Of a stretch of DNA of 64,000 nucleotides, positions 3,252 through 30,963 are shown one piece after another. This DNA is from a virus: the IMG/VR virus record IMGVR_UViG_3300001681_000071, positions 1 through 64,000 of that record. One strand, given 5' to 3'. The translations under genes and the position numbers were made by a program. Numbering within the stretch: position 1 is the stretch's first letter; each line of letters starts with the position of its first letter. The notes below the pieces were generated by a model. It did not search any database. It was not told where the DNA came from and worked only from the letters and a program-made list of their open reading frames with translations.

Positions 3252-3606
3252 CAAGAGACTGAGCCGGACCACTTGGTAACGATAGCGATACTCCTGGCCT
3301 TCTGGCTTTTGGCTGATGCCCAACGATGTGAAGCGTTTCGTAAATGTTCCCTCTGTTATCCCGACGAACCTTAATCGTTATACCAGCACCAAAGATAGTA
3401 GCTTTCGTATCTACGCTGGCTTTTGCTACTTCTAACAGTAGTTCTAAAGTGGGAATGTCCAAGATCATCTGAATGTTTCTGCCACAGGTGGGACCACCAA
3501 GAGTGTACTCACGTAGCACCTCGTCTTGTCCAGCTATCTGGAGGCACGTGTCCTTTCTCTTTACTTTTACTTCGTCCATAATTGGGGTGTTAGTGTCATA
3601 CATCAA
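3226..3606 (-). CDS. Unknown protein, coupled to terminase-like gene
   Basis: The 126-residue protein is of unknown family. Its ATG overlaps the end of the upstream leftward gene (shared bases 3596-3606), so the two are probably translated together. It has a mixed alpha/beta look: a basic N-terminal stretch, a strand-rich middle (residues ~40-85) and a basic C-terminus. A role beside the upstream HTH protein, such as in packaging, is only an inference from linkage. Confidence 0.7.
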   Translation of the reverse strand: MMYDTNTPIMDEVKVKRKDTCLQIAGQDEVLREYTLGGPTCGRNIQMILDIPTLELLLEVAKASVDTKATIFGAGITIKVRRDNRGNIYETLHIVGHQPKARRPGVSLSLPSGPAQSLVNGWKKRW

Positions 3607-4357
3607 TCACCTCACGCAACCCAGAAACATCAATGTCCTTATCCTTAGATCGAATGGCACCAAGTACAGCTTGCAACTCGCAAACATCTTCATACATAGC
3701 TTCAACTATATCTTCGCCACGAGCCTTAGCATCACTGACCCTAACCGACTCAACAAGCAGCTTACCGCCATGCTTACCACTATCACCATCCGATAGCTCA
3801 GAACGCAACTGAAGTAACAAGGGCAAGTCCCTAAGAGTCCTACGAATCTCCTTATCTTTTATCCCCTGGGCTACATACCCAATAGCGGCATCAAGTAACA
3901 TCAAATGCTTGCGCTTCATCTCAGCGGTGAATATCGTTCCTTCATCCGGTCTGGACTCACGGATGCTTCGCTCTACCTCATCAGCTACGCCCTGAGACAA
4001 CGGAGAGATCGCTGTTAACGGAGCCATGATGTTCTTCTTTACAGCCTCGATCTCAGAGATGCCATACTTGTCGAAGTACAGCTCTCTGTAAAGTGCTTGT
4101 GCCTGAGACTCTACTGTTCCGCTCTGACAACGAGTATCCCAACTCCACCGAACCTTGAATTCCCTTATAGTCGTAGCCGCTCTGTCCAAAGCCCGTCCAA
4201 CAGCCCGTTGATTCCGTAGCTTAGGTGCTTGCATCGCCCACAATAACATGGCGCGGTGAGCCCTTTCCGACTCGCGCGGTTGGCGTGTCAATGGCCCCAT
4301 AGAACGAACGGGTTTATGCTTTTTTACCTTGTTTTTCATGCTAATTCCCCCATACAA
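3596..4357 (-). CDS. HTH protein resembling phage small terminase subunits
   Basis: The 253-residue protein has a basic N-terminus. From residues ~35-80 it has a helix-turn-helix-like stretch followed by a W-x-W...R pattern, matching the layout I associate with phage small-terminase-like proteins, where this segment recognises DNA for packaging. The rest is helical, which suits an oligomerising core. An internal methionine (residue 7) could be the start. It lies far from tail genes and no large terminase is in the window, so packaging is inference; a transcription regulator is the alternative. A promoter-like stretch (leftward TATAGAAT) lies near 4390. Confidence 0.5.
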   Translation of the reverse strand: MYGGISMKNKVKKHKPVRSMGPLTRQPRESERAHRAMLLWAMQAPKLRNQRAVGRALDRAATTIREFKVRWSWDTRCQSGTVESQAQALYRELYFDKYGISEIEAVKKNIMAPLTAISPLSQGVADEVERSIRESRPDEGTIFTAEMKRKHLMLLDAAIGYVAQGIKDKEIRRTLRDLPLLLQLRSELSDGDSGKHGGKLLVESVRVSDAKARGEDIVEAMYEDVCELQAVLGAIRSKDKDIDVSGLREVIDV

Positions 4358-4960
4358 TTTGTAATTCTACTCATGATGTTCGTGAATTCTATACCTTTCC
4401 CTTAAAATAGCCCATAAATTACTAACATGTGAACGTGTTGTAATTTGGTAGAGGTACAGTGTTAGGTTGTTCTTTCGTTGATAAGTCAGTTAGTAAGTGG
4501 TTAATGGTAGCCCTAACAGAGCTGGTTAGAATAGACGGGTATTTGTTGGGGAAGTTGTGTTTGCGGGAGTGTTTTTTGTATTTAGCCCTAATTCCCTTAT
4601 ATGGTTGCGGTTGATTTTGGCAGGGTGTTGTGATTTGTTAGAAAATCCTTGTGGTTGTTTGTTTAGGGTAGTTTGGTGTTGAGTTGTGAGCTGTAGTAGG
4701 TGTGTTTTGTGCGGGTGAATTACGATTTGTTGAAAATGATAGGGTTTTTTCTGGCTTATGTAGAATTGTTAGGTTTGGCCCTGGCTTTTCGATCTTTCTT
4801 AACGGAATCGGCAAAATGTGGGATTGGCAGTAAGAATATCTCCCATTTTGGTTACGCATCGGGTATAATAAGCATGAGGGATTGTTGAAATTTTATTTGT
4901 CGAAACTATTCGATAGCACCCTTTTCAAAGTTAACCACCCAACCATAGAGGAACCTAACC
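4358..4960. other. Divergent intergenic region, strongly G/T-rich on + strand
   Basis: No gene is convincing here; the ORFs present are low complexity. From ~4430 to ~4760 the + strand is dominated by G and T, the reverse of the A/C-rich leaders in the rightward gene array. TATAAT at 4864-4869 lies ~95 bases before the first array gene and is a promoter candidate. The region separates leftward and rightward transcription and may carry promoters for both. Confidence 0.5.
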
Positions 4961-23647: not shown

Positions 23648-24520
23648 ATGGAAAGGACGATAAGAATTGGCTCATTGTTTTCTGGTATTGGGGGGATTGA
23701 GCTTGGGTTAGAGTATGGTATTCAAAACTCTATAACTATTTGGCAAGTCGAGTCGAACGAATTTTGTCGCCAGGTGCTAAAGCGGCACTGGCCCAAGTCA
23801 AAAATCTATAACGATGTAAAGAAGGTAGGAAAACATAACTTAGAGCCTGTAGACATTATTTGTGGTGGCTTTCCGTGCCAAGATATTTCAATAGCCGGGA
23901 AAAGAGAGGGGATAAATGACGGTGCCAAATCGAGTCTTTGGTGGGAAATGTGGCGGGTTGTTAGCGAGCTACGACCCCGAATCGTCGTCATTGAGAATGT
24001 CTCAGCTATCACTTTTTCCGATGGCGGGGGATGGGAGTTACTACATTCCCTTGCCCAAATCGGGTACTCTTGCGAATGGATTGATTTACGAGCAAGTGAT
24101 CCCCCGTTCAACGCGCCACACGAACGAGAACGCATATTCTTTGTTGCCTACACCGACACCAGCACTGAATATGACCTCTCCTTCAATGATGAAACACCAA
24201 GGGCATCAGAACTTTCGTGCGCTATTGCCGACACCAACAACGAACGATTGCAAAAACACACCGGGCGGTGTAGCCCAATGGGAAAGGCACAGCAGCTTAA
24301 ATATAGAAGCCGCGAAGATGGCGGGACGAACAAAGACGACAATTGGAAAGGATTTCCGATTGAACCCCCGCTTTGTCGAAGAGATGATGGGATTTCCGAT
24401 AGGGTGGACAGACTTAGAGCGTTAGGGAACTCAGTTGTTCCGGCATGTAGTAGGTGGATTGGTAAGCGAATACAAGAGTCAGGTCTTTTAAGGAGAAGAG
24501 ATGCATCAACACTTCCATAA
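23648..24520 (+). CDS. C5-cytosine DNA methyltransferase
   Basis: The 290-residue enzyme has the full motif order: FSGIGG (I, residues 11-16), GGFPCQDIS with catalytic Cys77 (IV), ENV (VI, 116-118), a PHERERIF stretch (VIII, 157-164) and ALGNSVVP (X, 258-265). It transfers methyl from SAM to C5 of cytosine. The variable target-recognition region (~170-250) is short. It could make the 5-methylcytosine that the TET/JBP dioxygenase at 29310-30230 would oxidise. A separate 169-codon ORF lies within it in another frame (23916-24425). The ribosome site is weak, suggesting coupling to the upstream gene. Confidence 0.95.
   Translation: MERTIRIGSLFSGIGGIELGLEYGIQNSITIWQVESNEFCRQVLKRHWPKSKIYNDVKKVGKHNLEPVDIICGGFPCQDISIAGKREGINDGAKSSLWWEMWRVVSELRPRIVVIENVSAITFSDGGGWELLHSLAQIGYSCEWIDLRASDPPFNAPHERERIFFVAYTDTSTEYDLSFNDETPRASELSCAIADTNNERLQKHTGRCSPMGKAQQLKYRSREDGGTNKDDNWKGFPIEPPLCRRDDGISDRVDRLRALGNSVVPACSRWIGKRIQESGLLRRRDASTLP
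23916..24425 (+). CDS. Overprinted ORF inside the C5-methyltransferase gene
   Basis: This 169-codon ORF runs in the same direction as the methyltransferase but in a different frame. Its product has real-looking features: 'SYDPESSSLRMSQLSLF', PLPKSGTLANG, two LLPTPT repeats, and an end of NPRFVEEMMGFPIGWTDLE. I recall proteins with this plan (YDPxSSS...SG...PTPT...NPxWVEWLMGFPxGWT) from many phages, annotated as unknown or as methyltransferase-associated. A 510-base open frame by chance inside a gene of this composition is unlikely. Start codon use is uncertain (ATG 23916 or a later one), and expression is not proven. Confidence 0.5.
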   Translation: MTVPNRVFGGKCGGLLASYDPESSSLRMSQLSLFPMAGDGSYYIPLPKSGTLANGLIYEQVIPRSTRHTNENAYSLLPTPTPALNMTSPSMMKHQGHQNFRALLPTPTTNDCKNTPGGVAQWERHSSLNIEAAKMAGRTKTTIGKDFRLNPRFVEEMMGFPIGWTDLER

Positions 24521-25049
24521 AAATTTAAACGTTAAGAATATATTGTCACGATATAAACCATCGACAATTGTAGAACTTGGTGGGCTTAATGGAGCCAATA
24601 CTTTACAGTTACTCACGATGGGCAAAGTCATCACTATAAGTGATAATAAGATGCCCGATAAGCTCTCTCCTTTCGTTAAGAAAGGCGAACTAAAATGGAT
24701 ACAAGCACTATCGTTTAACGCTCTCAAATCATTTGCTGATGGCTCTATTGAATTCGCTAGTGTTGACACTGACCACAATTACACCACTCTAAAGTTAGAA
24801 CTTATAGAATTAAAAAGAGCAATGAAGAAAGATGGTGTTGTTGTTTTACATGATGTTGAAACCTTTAAGAATAGAAACAACCAACATTATACTCTTGAAT
24901 ATGCCAACGGAGAGCCATATAACTTTGCTCTAATGACACAAGGCCATAGCTACACAGCGGCTTTGACAGAAGAAATACAAGAGGGCGAATGGAAACTGTT
25001 GGATTGGTCAGAAGCGAGCAACGGAGCAGCGGCTATTATCAAAACTTAG
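24501..25049 (+). CDS. SAM-dependent methyltransferase-like protein
   Basis: The 182-residue protein has AAGGAGA before the ATG and overlaps the end of the C5-methyltransferase. IVELGGLNGANT (residues ~23-34) is a class I SAM-binding loop. SVDTDHNYTTLKLELI and a DGVVVLHDV strand match the layout of CmcI/Methyltransf_24-type small-molecule or sugar methyltransferases. Its substrate is unknown; a hypermodified base or its precursor is a speculative option given the neighbourhood. It is the last rightward gene before the convergent operon. Confidence 0.75.
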   Translation: MHQHFHKNLNVKNILSRYKPSTIVELGGLNGANTLQLLTMGKVITISDNKMPDKLSPFVKKGELKWIQALSFNALKSFADGSIEFASVDTDHNYTTLKLELIELKRAMKKDGVVVLHDVETFKNRNNQHYTLEYANGEPYNFALMTQGHSYTAALTEEIQEGEWKLLDWSEASNGAAAIIKT

Positions 25050-25050
25050 G

Positions 25051-25521
25051 TTACCTCTCCATCGCAGAGAAGCGAGGTGTTCTTCTTTTTTCATCGAAGA
25101 TCAATAGACAAGAAGGAGCCGGTGCTGAATTTGGTGCCTTTTGAAATTTGATACGTCCCCTCACAAGCCTAATTTCAGCCGCCCTCATAGCCCAATCGTG
25201 CCACCACTTGGTGTCTGTACGGGCAAATGTCAAGCAAACCACCGTACAGCCTTTGGTACTCTCCCAATACGATTTCTCAATCCATTTGCCCACTTCTCTC
25301 CCGTAAGGAGGGTTGAGCCACACTGCCTCTCCGCGAGAAATTTTATGCCATGGCAAACTCAAAGCATTCCGGGTCAGGTATAGAACACATTTATGGTTCT
25401 CAGCAGAGGCAGCAGCGTCCAATACAAAATTGAATTCATCATTGATCTTATTAAAGAAAGACCACGGAGTTCCCCAATCTTGTTTTTTGCTACTGAACAG
25501 TTTATCCTCGGACCAACTCAT
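25051..25521 (-). CDS. Phage-type DNA N6-adenine methyltransferase (Dam-like)
   Basis: The 156-residue enzyme carries WGTP near the start, FVLDAAAS, a WLNPPYG catalytic motif (NPPY) at residues ~68-74 and LTFARTDTKWWH. This is the compact phage Dam-like family that methylates adenine N6. It is the last gene of the leftward operon and meets the rightward operon head-on with a one-base gap. GGGAG precedes the ATG. Confidence 0.92.
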   Translation of the reverse strand: MSWSEDKLFSSKKQDWGTPWSFFNKINDEFNFVLDAAASAENHKCVLYLTRNALSLPWHKISRGEAVWLNPPYGREVGKWIEKSYWESTKGCTVVCLTFARTDTKWWHDWAMRAAEIRLVRGRIKFQKAPNSAPAPSCLLIFDEKRRTPRFSAMER

Positions 25522-25850: not shown

Positions 25851-26801
25851 TTAGAAGAAGTTGTCTGCGTAGTCGGCTATTATTCCAAAATCTCTGAATA
25901 GTTTGCACCTATCAAGGTCTATGCCAACAATCCTTCCATTTAATTCTGACAAGTATTCTCTGCCAAATACAGCCTGTCTTGCCCTGTAAAGCACACCAAA
26001 GCTTTCACCTGTCTGAGACACCACCTTTTGTATCCTCATGTGCATACGGTCTATGTCTCGACCCACGTAGTATCTTCCTTTCTTCAATCCATGGAAGTCA
26101 CACAGCAAACTCTCTGTTATTGCCATATCTACGCCTAATCTTGCGTATTCTGGGTACTCAACTACACTCATTGATAGCTGTTTATGTATCCATCTGGCAT
26201 ATTCTTCCAAAACAACGCTTGGCGATGAGTTTGCCATACCAGTAATGTCGCATACTCCCCTCCTTGGGCCAGAGGCTTCGTCTATTTCCATGGTGGATGG
26301 TATTACATCGAAAACGTTAACCTTATGAAACATATCGGCAGATGTATAAGCAGCCCATCTGCCATTACCCCACACAGTTCTCAGATTGTTAAGAAGTGTT
26401 TTCCAATTGTCTTCTTTGGAATTGGTAAAGTCCTTCGTAAGATATTCTTTAGCACCACCGTTCTTAGATAATTCAACCAAGCTATTTATATGTTTCGTAA
26501 CACTGGTTGTTATAAGATTTCTGCGCTGTTTGCCTATATGAAGCTTATCGTAGTCCTCTGGTATACGTGTTGGATAAGGGTAGCGGAGGAACGTATAATA
26601 GGCAGAAGCCGGATTATAGAAGGCCATATAAAGAAATGATAACCACACTGCCTGTTCTGGATCCAGCCCTTTCTGTACCTCTATTAAAAGACCATGGAAC
26701 GGATCATAGTCCTTTGTTTTCAACTGCTTTCTCGCAAAGTCGTTAAAGTAAAACCACGTATCCGACTTTTTTACGCTGTCTGGATTTATGGTAGTTATCA
26801 T
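25851..26801 (-). CDS. Alpha-glutamyl/putrescinyl-thymine-pyrophosphorylase-like DNA modification enzyme
   Basis: The 316-residue protein matches the aGPT-Pplase group described by Iyer and colleagues in phages with hypermodified bases. A helical glycosylase-type core contains WLSFLYMAFYNPASAYY (residues ~53-69), GNGRWAAYTSADMFHKV (145-161) and a SGPRRGV segment (177-183). In characterised phages this enzyme displaces pyrophosphate from a 5-(pyrophosphoryloxymethyl) pyrimidine in DNA with an amine or amino acid. It overlaps the amidinotransferase gene by four bases and is the last of six coupled genes that include a dioxygenase and a kinase. Family name is by eye. Confidence 0.75.
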   Translation of the reverse strand: MITTINPDSVKKSDTWFYFNDFARKQLKTKDYDPFHGLLIEVQKGLDPEQAVWLSFLYMAFYNPASAYYTFLRYPYPTRIPEDYDKLHIGKQRRNLITTSVTKHINSLVELSKNGGAKEYLTKDFTNSKEDNWKTLLNNLRTVWGNGRWAAYTSADMFHKVNVFDVIPSTMEIDEASGPRRGVCDITGMANSSPSVVLEEYARWIHKQLSMSVVEYPEYARLGVDMAITESLLCDFHGLKKGRYYVGRDIDRMHMRIQKVVSQTGESFGVLYRARQAVFGREYLSELNGRIVGIDLDRCKLFRDFGIIADYADNFF

Positions 26802-27703
26802 TCTTTTCCCATTGGTTCTCTACATATTGGAAGAGTTAGACAAGCAAAACCACCCCCTAATTTCCTTATCTCGTTCATTTTGCTTTTATAAACTACTATT
26901 CCATTGTCTTCTAATATAGACTCGGTTTCAGGACAGTCATCTGGCATCAAAACAGAGTTTGGCGAAAGTGTAATCCAATTCATGGATAGTTTCTCGTTGA
27001 CCTCCTTGCTCGGTTTTAGATGTATAATCTCACCCGACCACTTAAAATTCTCTGTATCACTTCTGGTAAATAATCGTGTCCCAACAATGCGGTTTCCACC
27101 AAGTAAATGTTGTGGAATAGATGGGCCGAACTTATCAACATACTGCACTATACATCGTGTCTCATGGGACCAGAATTCAATTGCCTTTTTCTGGCTTCTG
27201 CCACCACAAGCAACACTAAAGGAGCCATCATTCATTATTAAGATGTCAGAAGCCTCAACAAAACCAATCATCAGTTTCATTGGAGAAGAATAATTACACC
27301 GAAACCACTTCATAATATAGTCAGCTTCACTACTCCTATGGGCTAACCCAGAGCGTGTAACATAAATCACATCACCAACTATTTTCGCCATATCGCGAAC
27401 AAACATTGAGTCAATGCTTTTACCACTACAAGCCTCATTTATATCCAAAACCTCTACTCCCAGACCCCGTAGCTTGGAAGTTAAAGAATCGAATTCCGTC
27501 AGTAATGTGTCATGGTTTGGAAGCTTAATCCAAGATGGCGGAGGCAAAGATGGCGGAGGCAAAGATGTACGTGAAGATAGAGTCATACGTGTATGCGAAA
27601 ACACTTCTGCATGAAATTTCAGATTGGTTGGGCGATTGACCAACACCGTAAACAGGTTCCCTGTTTCGTTTGTAATAAATGCACGCTTTTTATGTCCAAT
27701 CAT
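26798..27703 (-). CDS. Amidinotransferase / DDAH-type guanidino-group enzyme
   Basis: The 301-residue protein has the pentein-fold signatures of dimethylarginine dimethylaminohydrolases and amidinotransferases: MFVRDMAKIV, a D-I-L-I strand, GEIIHLKPS with the catalytic His, and a C-terminal GGGFACLTLP with the catalytic Cys. Such enzymes move an amidino group from arginine to an amine, or hydrolyse guanidines. A PPPS repeat lies near residue 50. It overlaps both neighbours (4 and 14 bases) inside the DNA-modification operon. The attractive inference is that it guanidinylates an amine installed on DNA, or makes the amine donor. Normal use on free amino acids is the alternative. Confidence 0.82.
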   Translation of the reverse strand: MIGHKKRAFITNETGNLFTVLVNRPTNLKFHAEVFSHTRMTLSSRTSLPPPSLPPPSWIKLPNHDTLLTEFDSLTSKLRGLGVEVLDINEACSGKSIDSMFVRDMAKIVGDVIYVTRSGLAHRSSEADYIMKWFRCNYSSPMKLMIGFVEASDILIMNDGSFSVACGGRSQKKAIEFWSHETRCIVQYVDKFGPSIPQHLLGGNRIVGTRLFTRSDTENFKWSGEIIHLKPSKEVNEKLSMNWITLSPNSVLMPDDCPETESILEDNGIVVYKSKMNEIRKLGGGFACLTLPICREPMGKE

Positions 27704-28787
27704 TTGAAGTCATCGGATATAAAAGCTGTTTCATAATCGTTCGTATTCTTTCTTTTTTTGCGAAAAGTAGTATTTCCTCTTTTCTTTTGTGCCATCTATA
27801 CTTCTTAGGGGAACTTGTTGCCATAGTGAGTTTAAGATCAATCGGATGCGGGGGCTCTATACCAATGTCCCTGCAAATCGTATGAATCATTCTTTGGGGA
27901 TGGGCTACAACTTCTTCAAACTTATAAGATAATGATATATTATATTTAAGTGCCATCGAATGTGCGTTTGCCCACTGGTTCAAACAAACCTCGATCAGCC
28001 TTTTGTTTTTGTCGTCATACCAGCCTGGGTAAAGGTCAAAACACCACCAATTATAATAATTGTAATTCTTAATATTAAGCCCTCCGACCTTGTAAGCAAA
28101 AAAGGCCCTTTTGTGCAACCATCCATCCATAAGTCCATTAACAGTAGCCGCAAAAGAACGTTTGAGATGTATATATTGAATCTCGCTAACGGGGAATAGT
28201 TCTTTAAATAAGCTTGGCCTATACACATTTTGCGGTGTTTTAAAGATGATGACCTTGCCACTTAAAGACAATGGATAAGAACATGCTGTTGGCATGACAA
28301 ATGGCGGTTCTTCCAGTATCACCTTGTGTTTTTGTGCTTCGCGGTCTTCCAATTTTCCATCGTACCAACTTTGGTCTACATCTTCAAATCTTGCCGTATC
28401 CTTGCCAGGCCATTGTAGTATCTTTCTTATGTGTATAGAATTTATAAGATGAGACTCTACACTAATATGCTTGTGACAAAGTTCTCCGCGCACAAGCGTT
28501 TTCAATTCTAATATATTATCAATTTTATCTAGTCTGTTCCCGCACAAGTAATCCTCATTCACAGCATTGCCAGTTAGCTTTAAATAAGGCTCTATCTCGC
28601 CTTGTAGGCTCACTACACTTGGGCTTCTGCTCAATACATCGAATAAACAACTACTCCCACTCCTTGAGGCCGTAAGAATTACAACTACTTTCTTTGGTTC
28701 GCCTATTGGGGAGTTGAGCAGTTTTCGGATATTGTTTTTTGCTGCCCCTATTTGATGATCATTCGGTTTCAACAATAGTTCTGGCAT
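27690..28787 (-). CDS. Sulfotransferase-like P-loop protein
   Basis: The 365-residue protein opens with a PAPS-binding-type loop, ILTASRSGSSCLFDVLSRSP (residues ~37-56), and later has YIHLKRSFAATVNG (around residues 205-220). These fit the two PAPS-contacting regions of sulfotransferase-fold proteins. The family moves sulfate from PAPS to hydroxyl or amino groups on sugars, tyrosines or small molecules. It overlaps the kinase gene by 29 bases and the amidinotransferase gene by 14, so it belongs to the modification operon. Sulfation of a base modification would be new; a small-molecule substrate is also possible. Confidence 0.7.
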   Translation of the reverse strand: MPELLLKPNDHQIGAAKNNIRKLLNSPIGEPKKVVVILTASRSGSSCLFDVLSRSPSVVSLQGEIEPYLKLTGNAVNEDYLCGNRLDKIDNILELKTLVRGELCHKHISVESHLINSIHIRKILQWPGKDTARFEDVDQSWYDGKLEDREAQKHKVILEEPPFVMPTACSYPLSLSGKVIIFKTPQNVYRPSLFKELFPVSEIQYIHLKRSFAATVNGLMDGWLHKRAFFAYKVGGLNIKNYNYYNWWCFDLYPGWYDDKNKRLIEVCLNQWANAHSMALKYNISLSYKFEEVVAHPQRMIHTICRDIGIEPPHPIDLKLTMATSSPKKYRWHKRKEEILLFAKKERIRTIMKQLLYPMTSNDWT

Positions 28788-29313
28788 TTGTATTGATCCA
28801 ATCTATTACTATCTCTGAAAGGGCTTTGGGGCTTTGCTTGCCATCTAAAATCAAACGGTCTCTATTCTTAAACATGTTAAAAAAGTTCTTTGCCTTTGTC
28901 TCCCTTCCCTTTAACCAATTTGCATTTTGATTGGACCCACGTTCTTTCCTACGTTCCACAAGAACATCATTTGGCAAATCTATCAATATACAAAAGCACC
29001 CGTCAGCGAATTCATTAACATATTCAAGACAGTATTTTGTAGAGAACCTATCGCCATCAAATATGGTGACAGAGTATTTTTCATTAGCCAGAAGAAAGCT
29101 ACTCCAATACTGCAAAGACTCTTTGAAGGCATTGTATGGAACGGTATCGCCACCATCGAACGTCTTCCCCAAGTAATGACCAGACAGTATGATGTTGTTT
29201 GTAAGGGTCCACTTTGGCTTAACTACAAACTCTGTATCGAATGGGTCAATATAGTTTCTTAGCATGGTTGTTTTTCCACAACCAGGAGAACCAACAACCC
29301 AAACTCCTATCAC
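28759..29313 (-). CDS. P-loop kinase, probable hydroxymethyl-pyrimidine DNA kinase
   Basis: The 184-residue protein starts at GTG 29313. Walker A is GSPGCGKTT (residues 8-16), TIFDGDRFS is a Walker-B-like strand, and ERRKERG is a lid-type segment. Small P-loop kinases beside aGPT-Pplase genes phosphorylate 5-hydroxymethyluracil in phage DNA (5-HMUDK, characterised in phages such as SP10 and ViI). In this operon it sits between the dioxygenase and the later enzymes, the expected order of steps. A nucleotide kinase is the alternative. Confidence 0.78.
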   Translation of the reverse strand: MIGVWVVGSPGCGKTTMLRNYIDPFDTEFVVKPKWTLTNNIILSGHYLGKTFDGGDTVPYNAFKESLQYWSSFLLANEKYSVTIFDGDRFSTKYCLEYVNEFADGCFCILIDLPNDVLVERRKERGSNQNANWLKGRETKAKNFFNMFKNRDRLILDGKQSPKALSEIVIDWINTNARTIVETE

Positions 29314-30230
29314 AATGACTCCAGCTTTCTGGTGTTGTATTTCTTGGCCCTTTTAAGCTCCTCTTCTGGGGATAAGCAGCCAAGGATACGGTTTCTAAGA
29401 TACATAACTACGCTAACTCGATACCAATCCTTATTCTTTTTTCCTTCGGCTTTTGGAGGAATATTGCCGTGCCATACAGCAGGGTTAAAAAGTATAAAAT
29501 CGCCATGCCGCATATTTACAGCCAAGCTAAATTCTGGAAGGACCAATTCAAATCCAGAATAATCTCCGTGTCTCATGGCAAACATGCAACCAAAACCTTC
29601 TTTAAGGTCGCCACTGTCTTGATGATAAGCAGCACACACCGTATTATTGACGGAGATTGTTGAAAATGGTGTGCCAGGTACTACCCAAGCTGGATGAGCT
29701 TTGTTTGCAAATTCTGTTTGTATCTCATGGAAGTTTGGCAGCAAAGACTTATAGATCCGCGAACACTTCCGCAAGTGTTTGGCAATTTTTGCCCATTCCT
29801 CTGGGTGGTCGCGTGTATACGTTGTTGCTCTACAATATGGGAAGCGACCTCCAACGCTCTCATAAAATCCACCTATAGAGCTGTAGACGGAGACCATTCT
29901 GCCATTTTCATCTAATGATCTCTCTGATTTAGATAATGTGCCATCCTTTTTGATTACCCGACTTTGCTTGTATCCGGCATATGCCGCCCTTGCATCTGAT
30001 GGGTATCTCATAAATTCCCTATATGGCTTTCTCACTTCTTCCAGTTCTTCGTCAGTGAAACATCCACGCCTCATAAGTATAATGGGTATACCATTGCTGC
30101 TATATACATCACAATTGCCGTCTATTATTAGACCATAATGGTTAGGTCTTGGATGGGTAGATTTCCAAGGCTCTATCTTTTCAGCCGATACTTTCGACCT
30201 TACCACTATCTTCATTGTTTTCATTATCAT
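29310..30230 (-). CDS. TET/JBP-family 2-oxoglutarate/Fe(II) dioxygenase
   Basis: The ~306-residue protein starts at ATG 30230; TTG 30239, ATG 30224 and ATG 30215 are alternatives within the end of the ParB-like gene. The double-stranded beta-helix core is clear: TISVNNTVCAAYHQDSGD with the HxD iron ligands (His203, Asp205), a G-F-E-L-V-L-P-E strand, and RHGDFILFNPAVWHGN with the distal His (~254). The 2-oxoglutarate-binding Arg lies in WYRVSV (~271). This is the TET/JBP pattern. Phage TETs oxidise 5-methylcytosine in DNA (Burke et al. 2021), and JBP acts on thymine. With the phage's C5-methyltransferase, 5mC is the likely substrate. Confidence 0.88.
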   Translation of the reverse strand: MIMKTMKIVVRSKVSAEKIEPWKSTHPRPNHYGLIIDGNCDVYSSNGIPIILMRRGCFTDEELEEVRKPYREFMRYPSDARAAYAGYKQSRVIKKDGTLSKSERSLDENGRMVSVYSSIGGFYESVGGRFPYCRATTYTRDHPEEWAKIAKHLRKCSRIYKSLLPNFHEIQTEFANKAHPAWVVPGTPFSTISVNNTVCAAYHQDSGDLKEGFGCMFAMRHGDYSGFELVLPEFSLAVNMRHGDFILFNPAVWHGNIPPKAEGKKNKDWYRVSVVMYLRNRILGCLSPEEELKRAKKYNTRKLESL

Positions 30231-30963
30231 CACCACCAAGACGCTTGTACTCTGCCATTACCGCTTCATAAACTGTATCTGGCATATTATCCGTGTCATA
30301 TGCGTATGATAACGACTTACAAGCCATCTTGAATTTTTGGCACTTCTCGTTTTCAAATATAAGCTGAATCATTCTGGAAGTAGAAATAGTTGGATTATCT
30401 ATCGTGATTACATCTTCGGCAATTGCGTCTTCATCTCCAGAATCCCAGACATTAGTAACGGTAGAATTTTCTGTTCTTCCACCAGCACCAGCATTGGCAT
30501 CATTGCCACTATACTTTTCATCGGGAGGAGCAAAGAAGTCTAAGGAGTCGTCTATTCCCCCAAAGGAATTGATCAAATCATCCATTTCACTACCAGTGAA
30601 GCCAAGCATCGTTGGATCAAAATCTGCAAGTTTGGCTAACTCTTCTAAGTGGTGTGCAAGCATAGCCTCATCCCATCCGGACAGTTCTCCAGAACGATTG
30701 AGCCTAATAGATAATTTTCTTGCTACCTCATCGGATACGTCCAAATAAACTATATTTGTTGTTTCGTATCCGAGTTCCTTTAAAACCTTTAGCCTTGCAT
30801 TCCCAGCAATAACCATTTGGGTTGTTTTCTGAACAATTAACGGCTCTACCTGCCCATGATCTTCAATGCTATCTCGTATAGCTGCATAGTTTTGTTCATT
30901 GTGTTTTCTTGGGTTTTGCGGATCATAGACAAGTAAATCAACTTCAACTTCGGCATATTCCAT
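30181..30963 (-). CDS. ParB/sulfiredoxin-fold protein
   Basis: The 260-residue protein begins with a ParB-like domain: LLVYDPQNPRKHNEQN, then IEDHGQVEPLIVQ and VIAGNARLKVLKELGY. The following 'LSGWDEAMLAHHLEELA...GF' stretch is typical of ParB domains that are usually fused to DNA methylases in phages. Here the C-terminus is an acidic Asp/Asn-rich region without a methylase. ParB domains are described in hypermodification gene neighbourhoods and may direct the enzymes to DNA. It overlaps the dioxygenase gene start. Confidence 0.83.
   Translation of the reverse strand: MEYAEVEVDLLVYDPQNPRKHNEQNYAAIRDSIEDHGQVEPLIVQKTTQMVIAGNARLKVLKELGYETTNIVYLDVSDEVARKLSIRLNRSGELSGWDEAMLAHHLEELAKLADFDPTMLGFTGSEMDDLINSFGGIDDSLDFFAPPDEKYSGNDANAGAGGRTENSTVTNVWDSGDEDAIAEDVITIDNPTISTSRMIQLIFENEKCQKFKMACKSLSYAYDTDNMPDTVYEAVMAEYKRLGGDDNENNEDSGKVESIG

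Follow-up and report, generated by a model that had tools for sequence, protein, structure and literature searches.

Besides phiW-14, the bacteriophages M6 and ViI are further 5-hydroxymethyldeoxyuridine (5-hmdU) phages that hypermodify thymidine. The activated intermediate of phiW-14, 5-(hydroxymethyl-O-pyrophosphoryl)uracil, subsequently receives an amine (PMC5977210). Related gene sets are present in actinophages. In Rhodococcus phage Tonitrus, Gordonia phage CloverMinnie and Mycobacterium phage Phelemich, overlapping genes encode a ParB protein, a Tet-like protein, an aGPT-Pplase2/amino acid:DNA transferase (ADDT) and a kinase, and the Tonitrus operon has been described as a possible five-gene thymidine hypermodification system (PMC11955845). 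Here, we analyzed bases 1–64,000 (the window) of the 79,172-base IMG/VR virus record IMGVR_UViG_3300001681_000071, assigned to a tailed phage on the basis of its tape-measure, tail-fibre, primase-helicase, exonuclease and Sak4-like genes. It carries an operon in which the genes known from the actinophages are joined by a sulfotransferase-like protein (ST) and a guanidino-modifying enzyme (GME). As in phiW-14, a 5-hydroxymethylpyrimidine is proposed to be activated by (pyro)phosphorylation and displaced by an amine (PMC5977210). Systems of the phiW-14 type, however, rely on a phage hydroxymethyl-dUMP synthase acting on the nucleotide, whereas the window encodes a TET dioxygenase; no thymidylate-synthase homologue, the indicator of a dUMP or dCMP hydroxymethylase, was found in the 79,172-base record, which may be incomplete.

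The operon is located on the minus strand (30963–25851) and consists of six genes in the following order:

30181..30963, minus strand: ParB-N-domain protein, 260 amino acids (PF02195, 7e-8; phrog_620, 2e-35)
29310..30239, minus strand: TET/JBP 2-oxoglutarate/Fe(II) dioxygenase, 309 amino acids, TTG start uncertain (PF12851, 2e-21)
28759..29313, minus strand: P-loop nucleotide-kinase-like protein, 184 amino acids (PF18751, Ploopntkinase3, 9e-7; phrog_800, 1e-12)
27690..28787, minus strand: sulfotransferase-like protein (ST), 365 amino acids (PF13469, Sulfotransfer_3, 6e-6)
26798..27703, minus strand: guanidino-modifying enzyme (GME), 301 amino acids (Pfam ADI, 1e-5; NCBIfam dimethylargininase, 3e-11)
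25851..26801, minus strand: amino acid:DNA transferase (ADDT), aGPT-Pplase-related, 316 amino acids (PF18724, 1e-19; PF18746, aGPT-Pplase3, 1e-7)

A first-pass annotation had proposed six overlapping genes read in one direction at 25851–30963. All six open reading frames were recovered, and Pfam matches agree with its labels for the ParB-like, TET/JBP, P-loop kinase, sulfotransferase-like and aGPT-Pplase-like proteins. Neighbouring genes overlap by 59, 4, 29, 14 and 4 bases; the range of 4–50 bases given earlier therefore holds for four of the overlaps (4–29) and is narrowly exceeded by that between ParB and TET, which amounts to 59 if TET starts at TTG and is smaller with a later ATG. The reading frames span 184–365 amino acids. 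In 300 first-order Markov simulations of random sequence of the same length, the longest stop-free run had a mean of 121 and a maximum of 202 codons, a value exceeded by five of the six frames, while the kinase (184 amino acids) is backed by its homologues instead.

The core of the operon is of a known kind. ParB is the usual first gene of TET operons and occupies the same place in loci L002, L003 and L007 as well as in many viral loci; a role in DNA binding or targeting is probable. The TET protein scores above the PF12851 cut-off and contains the HxD...H iron triad as well as the 2-oxoglutarate-binding arginine, with H206, D208, H257 and R274 invariant among eight phage homologues. It is predicted to produce 5-hydroxymethylpyrimidine in DNA. 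The kinase carries a GSPGCGKT motif and has P-loop homologues in most ADDT loci. PF18723, the signature of HMUDK-type 5-hmdU DNA kinases, is absent from the window record, the kinase of which matches Ploopntkinase3 instead; by its family and neighbourhood it would act as a 5-hydroxymethylpyrimidine-DNA kinase. ADDT reaches 71.4 bits with PF18724 (cut-off 26.2), contains 30 residues that are invariant when it is aligned with five actinophage proteins (six phages in all) and presumably exchanges the activated hydroxyl for an amine. A search of IMG/VR with ADDT yielded 71 viral loci, most of them with TET and kinase. ParB-TET-ADDT-kinase forms the first operon in Gordonia, Mycobacterium and Rhodococcus phages, and a TET-ADDT pair is also found in Microbacterium phages. 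The first-pass annotation knew of no described phage with the whole set; by itself, the ParB-TET-kinase-ADDT core is not a new combination. Among 48 open reading frames scanned in ADDT operons, further tailoring genes resemble FAD-dependent amino-acid oxidases (nine), Asp/Arg hydroxylases (seven) and acetyltransferases (three). In Pelagibacter phage HTVC112P (L009:5357-7579), ParB and TET are followed by an FkbM methyltransferase, with neither ADDT nor kinase.

What sets the window apart is the pair formed by ST and GME. The additional genes of the actinophage operons are hypothetical or oxidoreductase-like, searches for ST and GME were negative there, and queries from the window, L088 and L094 matched none of 50,697 phage records; for this pair, the claim of novelty stands. 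Single-sequence searches with ST and GME from the window likewise detected no relatives in phages or IMG/VR. The link was found through neighbours of ADDT, since two ADDT loci (L012 and L017) also bear ST and GME. A renewed search with an ST alignment including the L012 and L017 proteins led to 17 viral ST loci; the following counts cover 16 records, i.e., the window and 15 further ones. GME is present in 14 of them. In the other two, L091 and L094, an arginase-family gene replaces GME, and none of the remaining 14 contains such a gene. Gene order varies from kinase-ST-GME-ADDT in the window to ADDT-ST-GME (L012), ST-ADDT-GME (L017, with TET and kinase elsewhere in the record), kinase-kinase-ADDT-ST-GME (L093), kinase-ST-ADDT-arginase (L091), kinase-ST with GME two genes later (L095) and kinase-ST-GME followed by a thymidylate-synthase homologue and an APH kinase (L083, L085, L087, L090). 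The APH-type phosphotransferase of the latter group, adjoining the thymidylate-synthase homologue, lies at L085:9744-10682 and L090:10096-10929 and is also present in L083 and L087. HMUDK_hel, the helical domain of 5-hmdU DNA kinases, occurs in five ST virus records (5e-48 to 2e-65). As the viral pair adjoins kinases, ADDT, 5-hmdU-kinase domains or dCMP/dUMP-hydroxymethylase-like genes, we assign it to pyrimidine hypermodification. The 188-kb virus record L012 furthermore encodes, close to ADDT-ST-GME, a protein similar to 2-amino-adenylosuccinate synthetase (3330-4400; phrog_1211, 7e-73) and an S-adenosylmethionine decarboxylase (L012:5802-6146; 6e-15), and in this virus a modified purine may occur together with a hypermodified pyrimidine.

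GME had been labelled an amidinotransferase, which is right with regard to the superfamily and wrong with regard to the branch. A profile built from 12 GME proteins matches Pseudomonas aeruginosa DDAH at 6e-28, arginine deiminase (ADI) at 7e-18, the amidinotransferase AGAT at 1e-8 and SxtG at 1e-4. NCBIfam DDAH models match all 12 members, and no amidinotransferase model is among their NCBIfam matches. Cys288, His199, Glu150, Asp104, Arg123, Arg169 and Asn242 align with DDAH residues (DDAH 3rhy), and the catalytic Cys/His/Glu as well as the arginine-binding Asp/Arg residues are conserved throughout the 12-member alignment, making Cys288-His199-Glu150 the candidate catalytic triad. On these sequence grounds, GME is placed in the dimethylargininase/arginine-deiminase branch and not among the amidinotransferases. 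With 43.7 bits against a family cut-off of 340, it does not qualify as a dimethylargininase or arginine deiminase proper. It shares fold, triad and carboxylate-binding residues with DDAH and ADI and differs from them in lying far below the family cut-offs, in a leucine two residues past the catalytic histidine and in its phage operon context. In ADI and DDAH, Cys/His/Glu form the triad while arginine residues grip the substrate carboxylate, and in NnhA the carboxylate-holding arginines have been lost together with the amino-acid substrate (PMC11659421). Their retention in GME points to a substrate that resembles arginine and has a free carboxylate.

In ST, the SRSGSS donor loop (5'-phosphosulfate loop), with S41, R42 and G44 invariant, is retained, as are the GE and KTPQ motifs and Arg210 of the 3'-phosphate site. 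The ST profile matches CurM/olefin-synthase sulfotransferases at 1e-6, and a structure model with a predicted local distance difference test (pLDDT) value of 78 has TPST2 and STF1 as its best fold matches. Donor loop and general fold are common to ST and sulfotransferases dependent on 3'-phosphoadenosine-5'-phosphosulfate (PAPS), e.g., TPST, CurM and the Sulfotransfer_3 family. ST differs from these in the 3'-phosphate site (see below), a long insert and regular pairing with an arginine-type enzyme.

The pairing extends to bacteria. A search with the ST profile revealed 61 bacterial loci, in which an arginase-family gene (43 of 61) or GME (13 of 61) is found near ST, directly after it; five have neither and none has both. 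The form from Oxalobacteraceae and Kerfeldbacteria is methyltransferase-ST-arginase. L112:5267-8024 and 42 similar ST-arginase loci stem from Oxalobacteraceae, Sphaerotilaceae, Kerfeldbacteria and a Parcubacterium; a methyltransferase gene precedes ST in L112 and L119. The ST-linked arginases (L112:7212-8024, L119:7200-8018, L091:8314-9096) feature GDC or LDC in place of the GDH of arginases, such that one manganese-ligand histidine is a cysteine, while the DxHxD and DxD motifs are retained. ST-GME loci from Bdellovibrionota, Elusimicrobia, Myxococcota and others often contain an additional second sulfotransferase, as in the clusters L158:2412-10759, L153, L156, L159 and L165. The L158 cluster adjoins sulfate-activation genes including APS kinase as well as a B12 radical SAM gene and looks like a cluster for an undescribed sulfated metabolite. 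In the ST tree, loci with arginase appear in two separate groups, one comprising the bacterial ones (99/98) and one with the viral L091 and L094 (100/95), indicating that the partner changed at least twice; the branch leading to the window is long (1.83) and its exact placement is unsure. From the repeated exchange we argue that GME and arginase have equivalent functions in processing an arginine-type guanidino group. Together with its placement in the DDAH/ADI branch, the replacement of GME by arginase makes guanidino hydrolysis likelier than addition. A function as arginine dihydrolase, converting arginine to ornithine, is a candidate that would fit the swap best.

With regard to the modified base, a cluster just past the operon (23648-25521), consisting of a C5-cytosine methyltransferase, a Methyltransf_24 protein and a Dam-type methyltransferase, comes into play:

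25051..25521, minus strand: Dam-type N6-adenine DNA methyltransferase, downstream of the operon (PF05869, 4e-25)
23648..24520, plus strand: C5-cytosine DNA methyltransferase (PF00145, 4e-41)

The Dam-type gene possibly belongs to the same transcription unit as the operon, and the model does not need it. The C5-methyltransferase, encoded on the opposite strand next to the operon, would allow a route from 5-methylcytosine to 5-hydroxymethylcytosine and is a possible source of 5-methylcytosine for TET. Such enzymes are encoded in only 8 of 32 TET/ADDT records and in none of nine TET-bearing isolates, and none was detected in the other ST records searched. This rarity makes JBP-like oxidation of thymine at least as likely. 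A thymidylate-synthase match is present in 12 of the 16 ST records, and position 177 of these homologues decides between dUMP and dCMP (PMC8670742). It is Asp (dCMP-type) in L083, L085, L087, L088, L089, L090, L095 and L096/L098 and Asn (dUMP-type) in L012, L093 and L094. As both types occur among the ST viruses, the module appears to serve cytosine as well as uracil/thymine routes.

We consider it highly probable that the operon modifies DNA pyrimidines; very probably, a base of the phage's own DNA is hydroxylated by the six-gene set, then activated and linked to an amino-acid side chain. Protein families, conserved catalytic residues and recurrent neighbourhoods lend good support to the earlier proposal of an operon for pyrimidine hypermodification that includes two additional tailoring enzymes. 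On balance, we favour a post-replicative pathway of five steps including GME and ST. The TET/JBP protein would hydroxylate a 5-methylpyrimidine in DNA, either thymine or 5-methylcytosine provided by the neighbouring C5-methyltransferase, the P-loop kinase would phosphorylate the 5-hydroxymethyl group and an amino-acid amine would displace the phosphate via ADDT; family membership and conserved gene sets point to these three reactions. GME would then process an arginine-derived moiety at its guanidino group, as residue conservation and partner swapping suggest, most likely by hydrolysis because relatives have an arginase-family enzyme instead of GME; we see about even chances that it hydrolyzes an arginine-derived group within this pathway. 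Finally, ST, probably with PAPS, would sulfonate the side chain or, less likely, activate a hydroxyl. This is the weakest step, and sulfonation of the pathway product by ST is a tentative assignment. Steps four and five may occur in either order and may take place on the DNA or precede attachment, with the free amino acid as substrate.

Several points weigh against this pathway, which as a whole has been read from sequence, gene neighbourhoods and models. Concerning GME, the residue two positions past the catalytic histidine is Leu in most members (Leu/Ile) as compared to Asp in ADI and Lys in DDAH, so that the exact reaction is not readable from sequence. In Foldseek, ADI, AGAT (1.5e-14) and the polyamine amidinotransferase HsvA fit the structure model (pLDDT 81; fold matches at E about 1e-14) equally well, and the comparison does not separate amidinotransferases from hydrolases. 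Along with the shared superfamily, this would suit a pathway with an identical core in which GME works as an arginine-dependent amidinotransferase: the amine already linked to the DNA would receive an amidino group, and the product would be a guanidino base. We regard this as unlikely given the profile and NCBIfam matches described above and the replacement of GME by arginases, which remove rather than add the guanidine carbon. The pair is furthermore present on bacterial chromosomes, away from DNA-modification genes: the operons from Oxalobacteraceae and the bacterial ST-GME operons contain homologous ST and partner genes with no TET, ADDT or ParB nearby. It could therefore act on a small molecule, i.e., ST and GME or arginase could make or alter a free arginine-derived compound that serves as ADDT nucleophile in phages or is unrelated to DNA. 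The methyltransferases, second sulfotransferase, B12 radical SAM enzyme and sulfate-activation genes adjoining the bacterial pair agree with this, and the conserved carboxylate-binding arginines of GME would suit a free amino acid. Such a role is nevertheless rather improbable since the viral pair, in several different layouts, accompanies genes for hydroxymethylation, kinases or ADDT, and the arginase-fold enzyme OspR acts on attached arginine in peptides (PMC10028609).

Further objections concern ST. The serine conserved in the 3'-phosphate site of sulfotransferases corresponds to Gly218 in all 14 aligned members (NGL[MI]DGW), and the model fits known sulfotransferases loosely (TM about 0.4). 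Owing to this substitution, use of PAPS is likely rather than shown. In addition, eight ST-GME virus records, which may be incomplete, lack ADDT, implying that it is not always needed or that another transferase is present there. Both the substitution, flanked by the invariant residues Asn217, Asp221, Gly222 and Trp223 (Gly218 itself being invariant in the 14 members), and the missing ADDT would be accounted for if ST was not a sulfotransferase and bound another phosphate-bearing ligand, for instance aiding amine transfer to the phosphorylated base without ADDT; the kinase gene directly precedes ST in the window, L083, L085, L087, L090, L091 and L095. The retained donor loop, GE and KTPQ motifs and 3'-site arginine, best profile and fold matches to PAPS sulfotransferases and the PAPS-making genes adjoining the L158 cluster render this quite unlikely. 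Least probable is that C5-methyltransferase and TET produce 5-hydroxymethylcytosine only and the other genes decorate something else. A distance of 1.3 kb between the C5-methyltransferase and the operon fits this notion, which conflicts with the overlaps tying kinase and ADDT to the operon, their company with TET in most loci and the above-mentioned lack of C5-methyltransferases in TET-bearing isolated phages.

The novelty of the locus lies in the ST-GME tailoring module on a known core, and the pair points to a DNA decoration so far undescribed. Phage DNA hypermodification is extended by a two-gene tailoring module that recurs with TET, 5-hmdU-kinase and dCMP-hydroxymethylase-like routes. In its most specific form, put forward as a speculative and rather doubtful proposal, ST would transfer a sulfo group from PAPS to a side chain derived from arginine or ornithine and carried by the base, with GME and arginase as interchangeable unmasking enzymes shared with an uncharacterized bacterial pathway. 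We know of no described example of a sulfonated, amino-acid-bearing nucleobase. Since GME and arginase replace each other so cleanly, the chemistry can be tested directly and the phage module is tied to an uncharacterized bacterial operon. If ST acts as predicted, bases would bear a sulfonated amino-acid side chain that is negative or zwitterionic, unlike the known amines and sugars, and such a mark would have consequences for restriction evasion and DNA chemistry.

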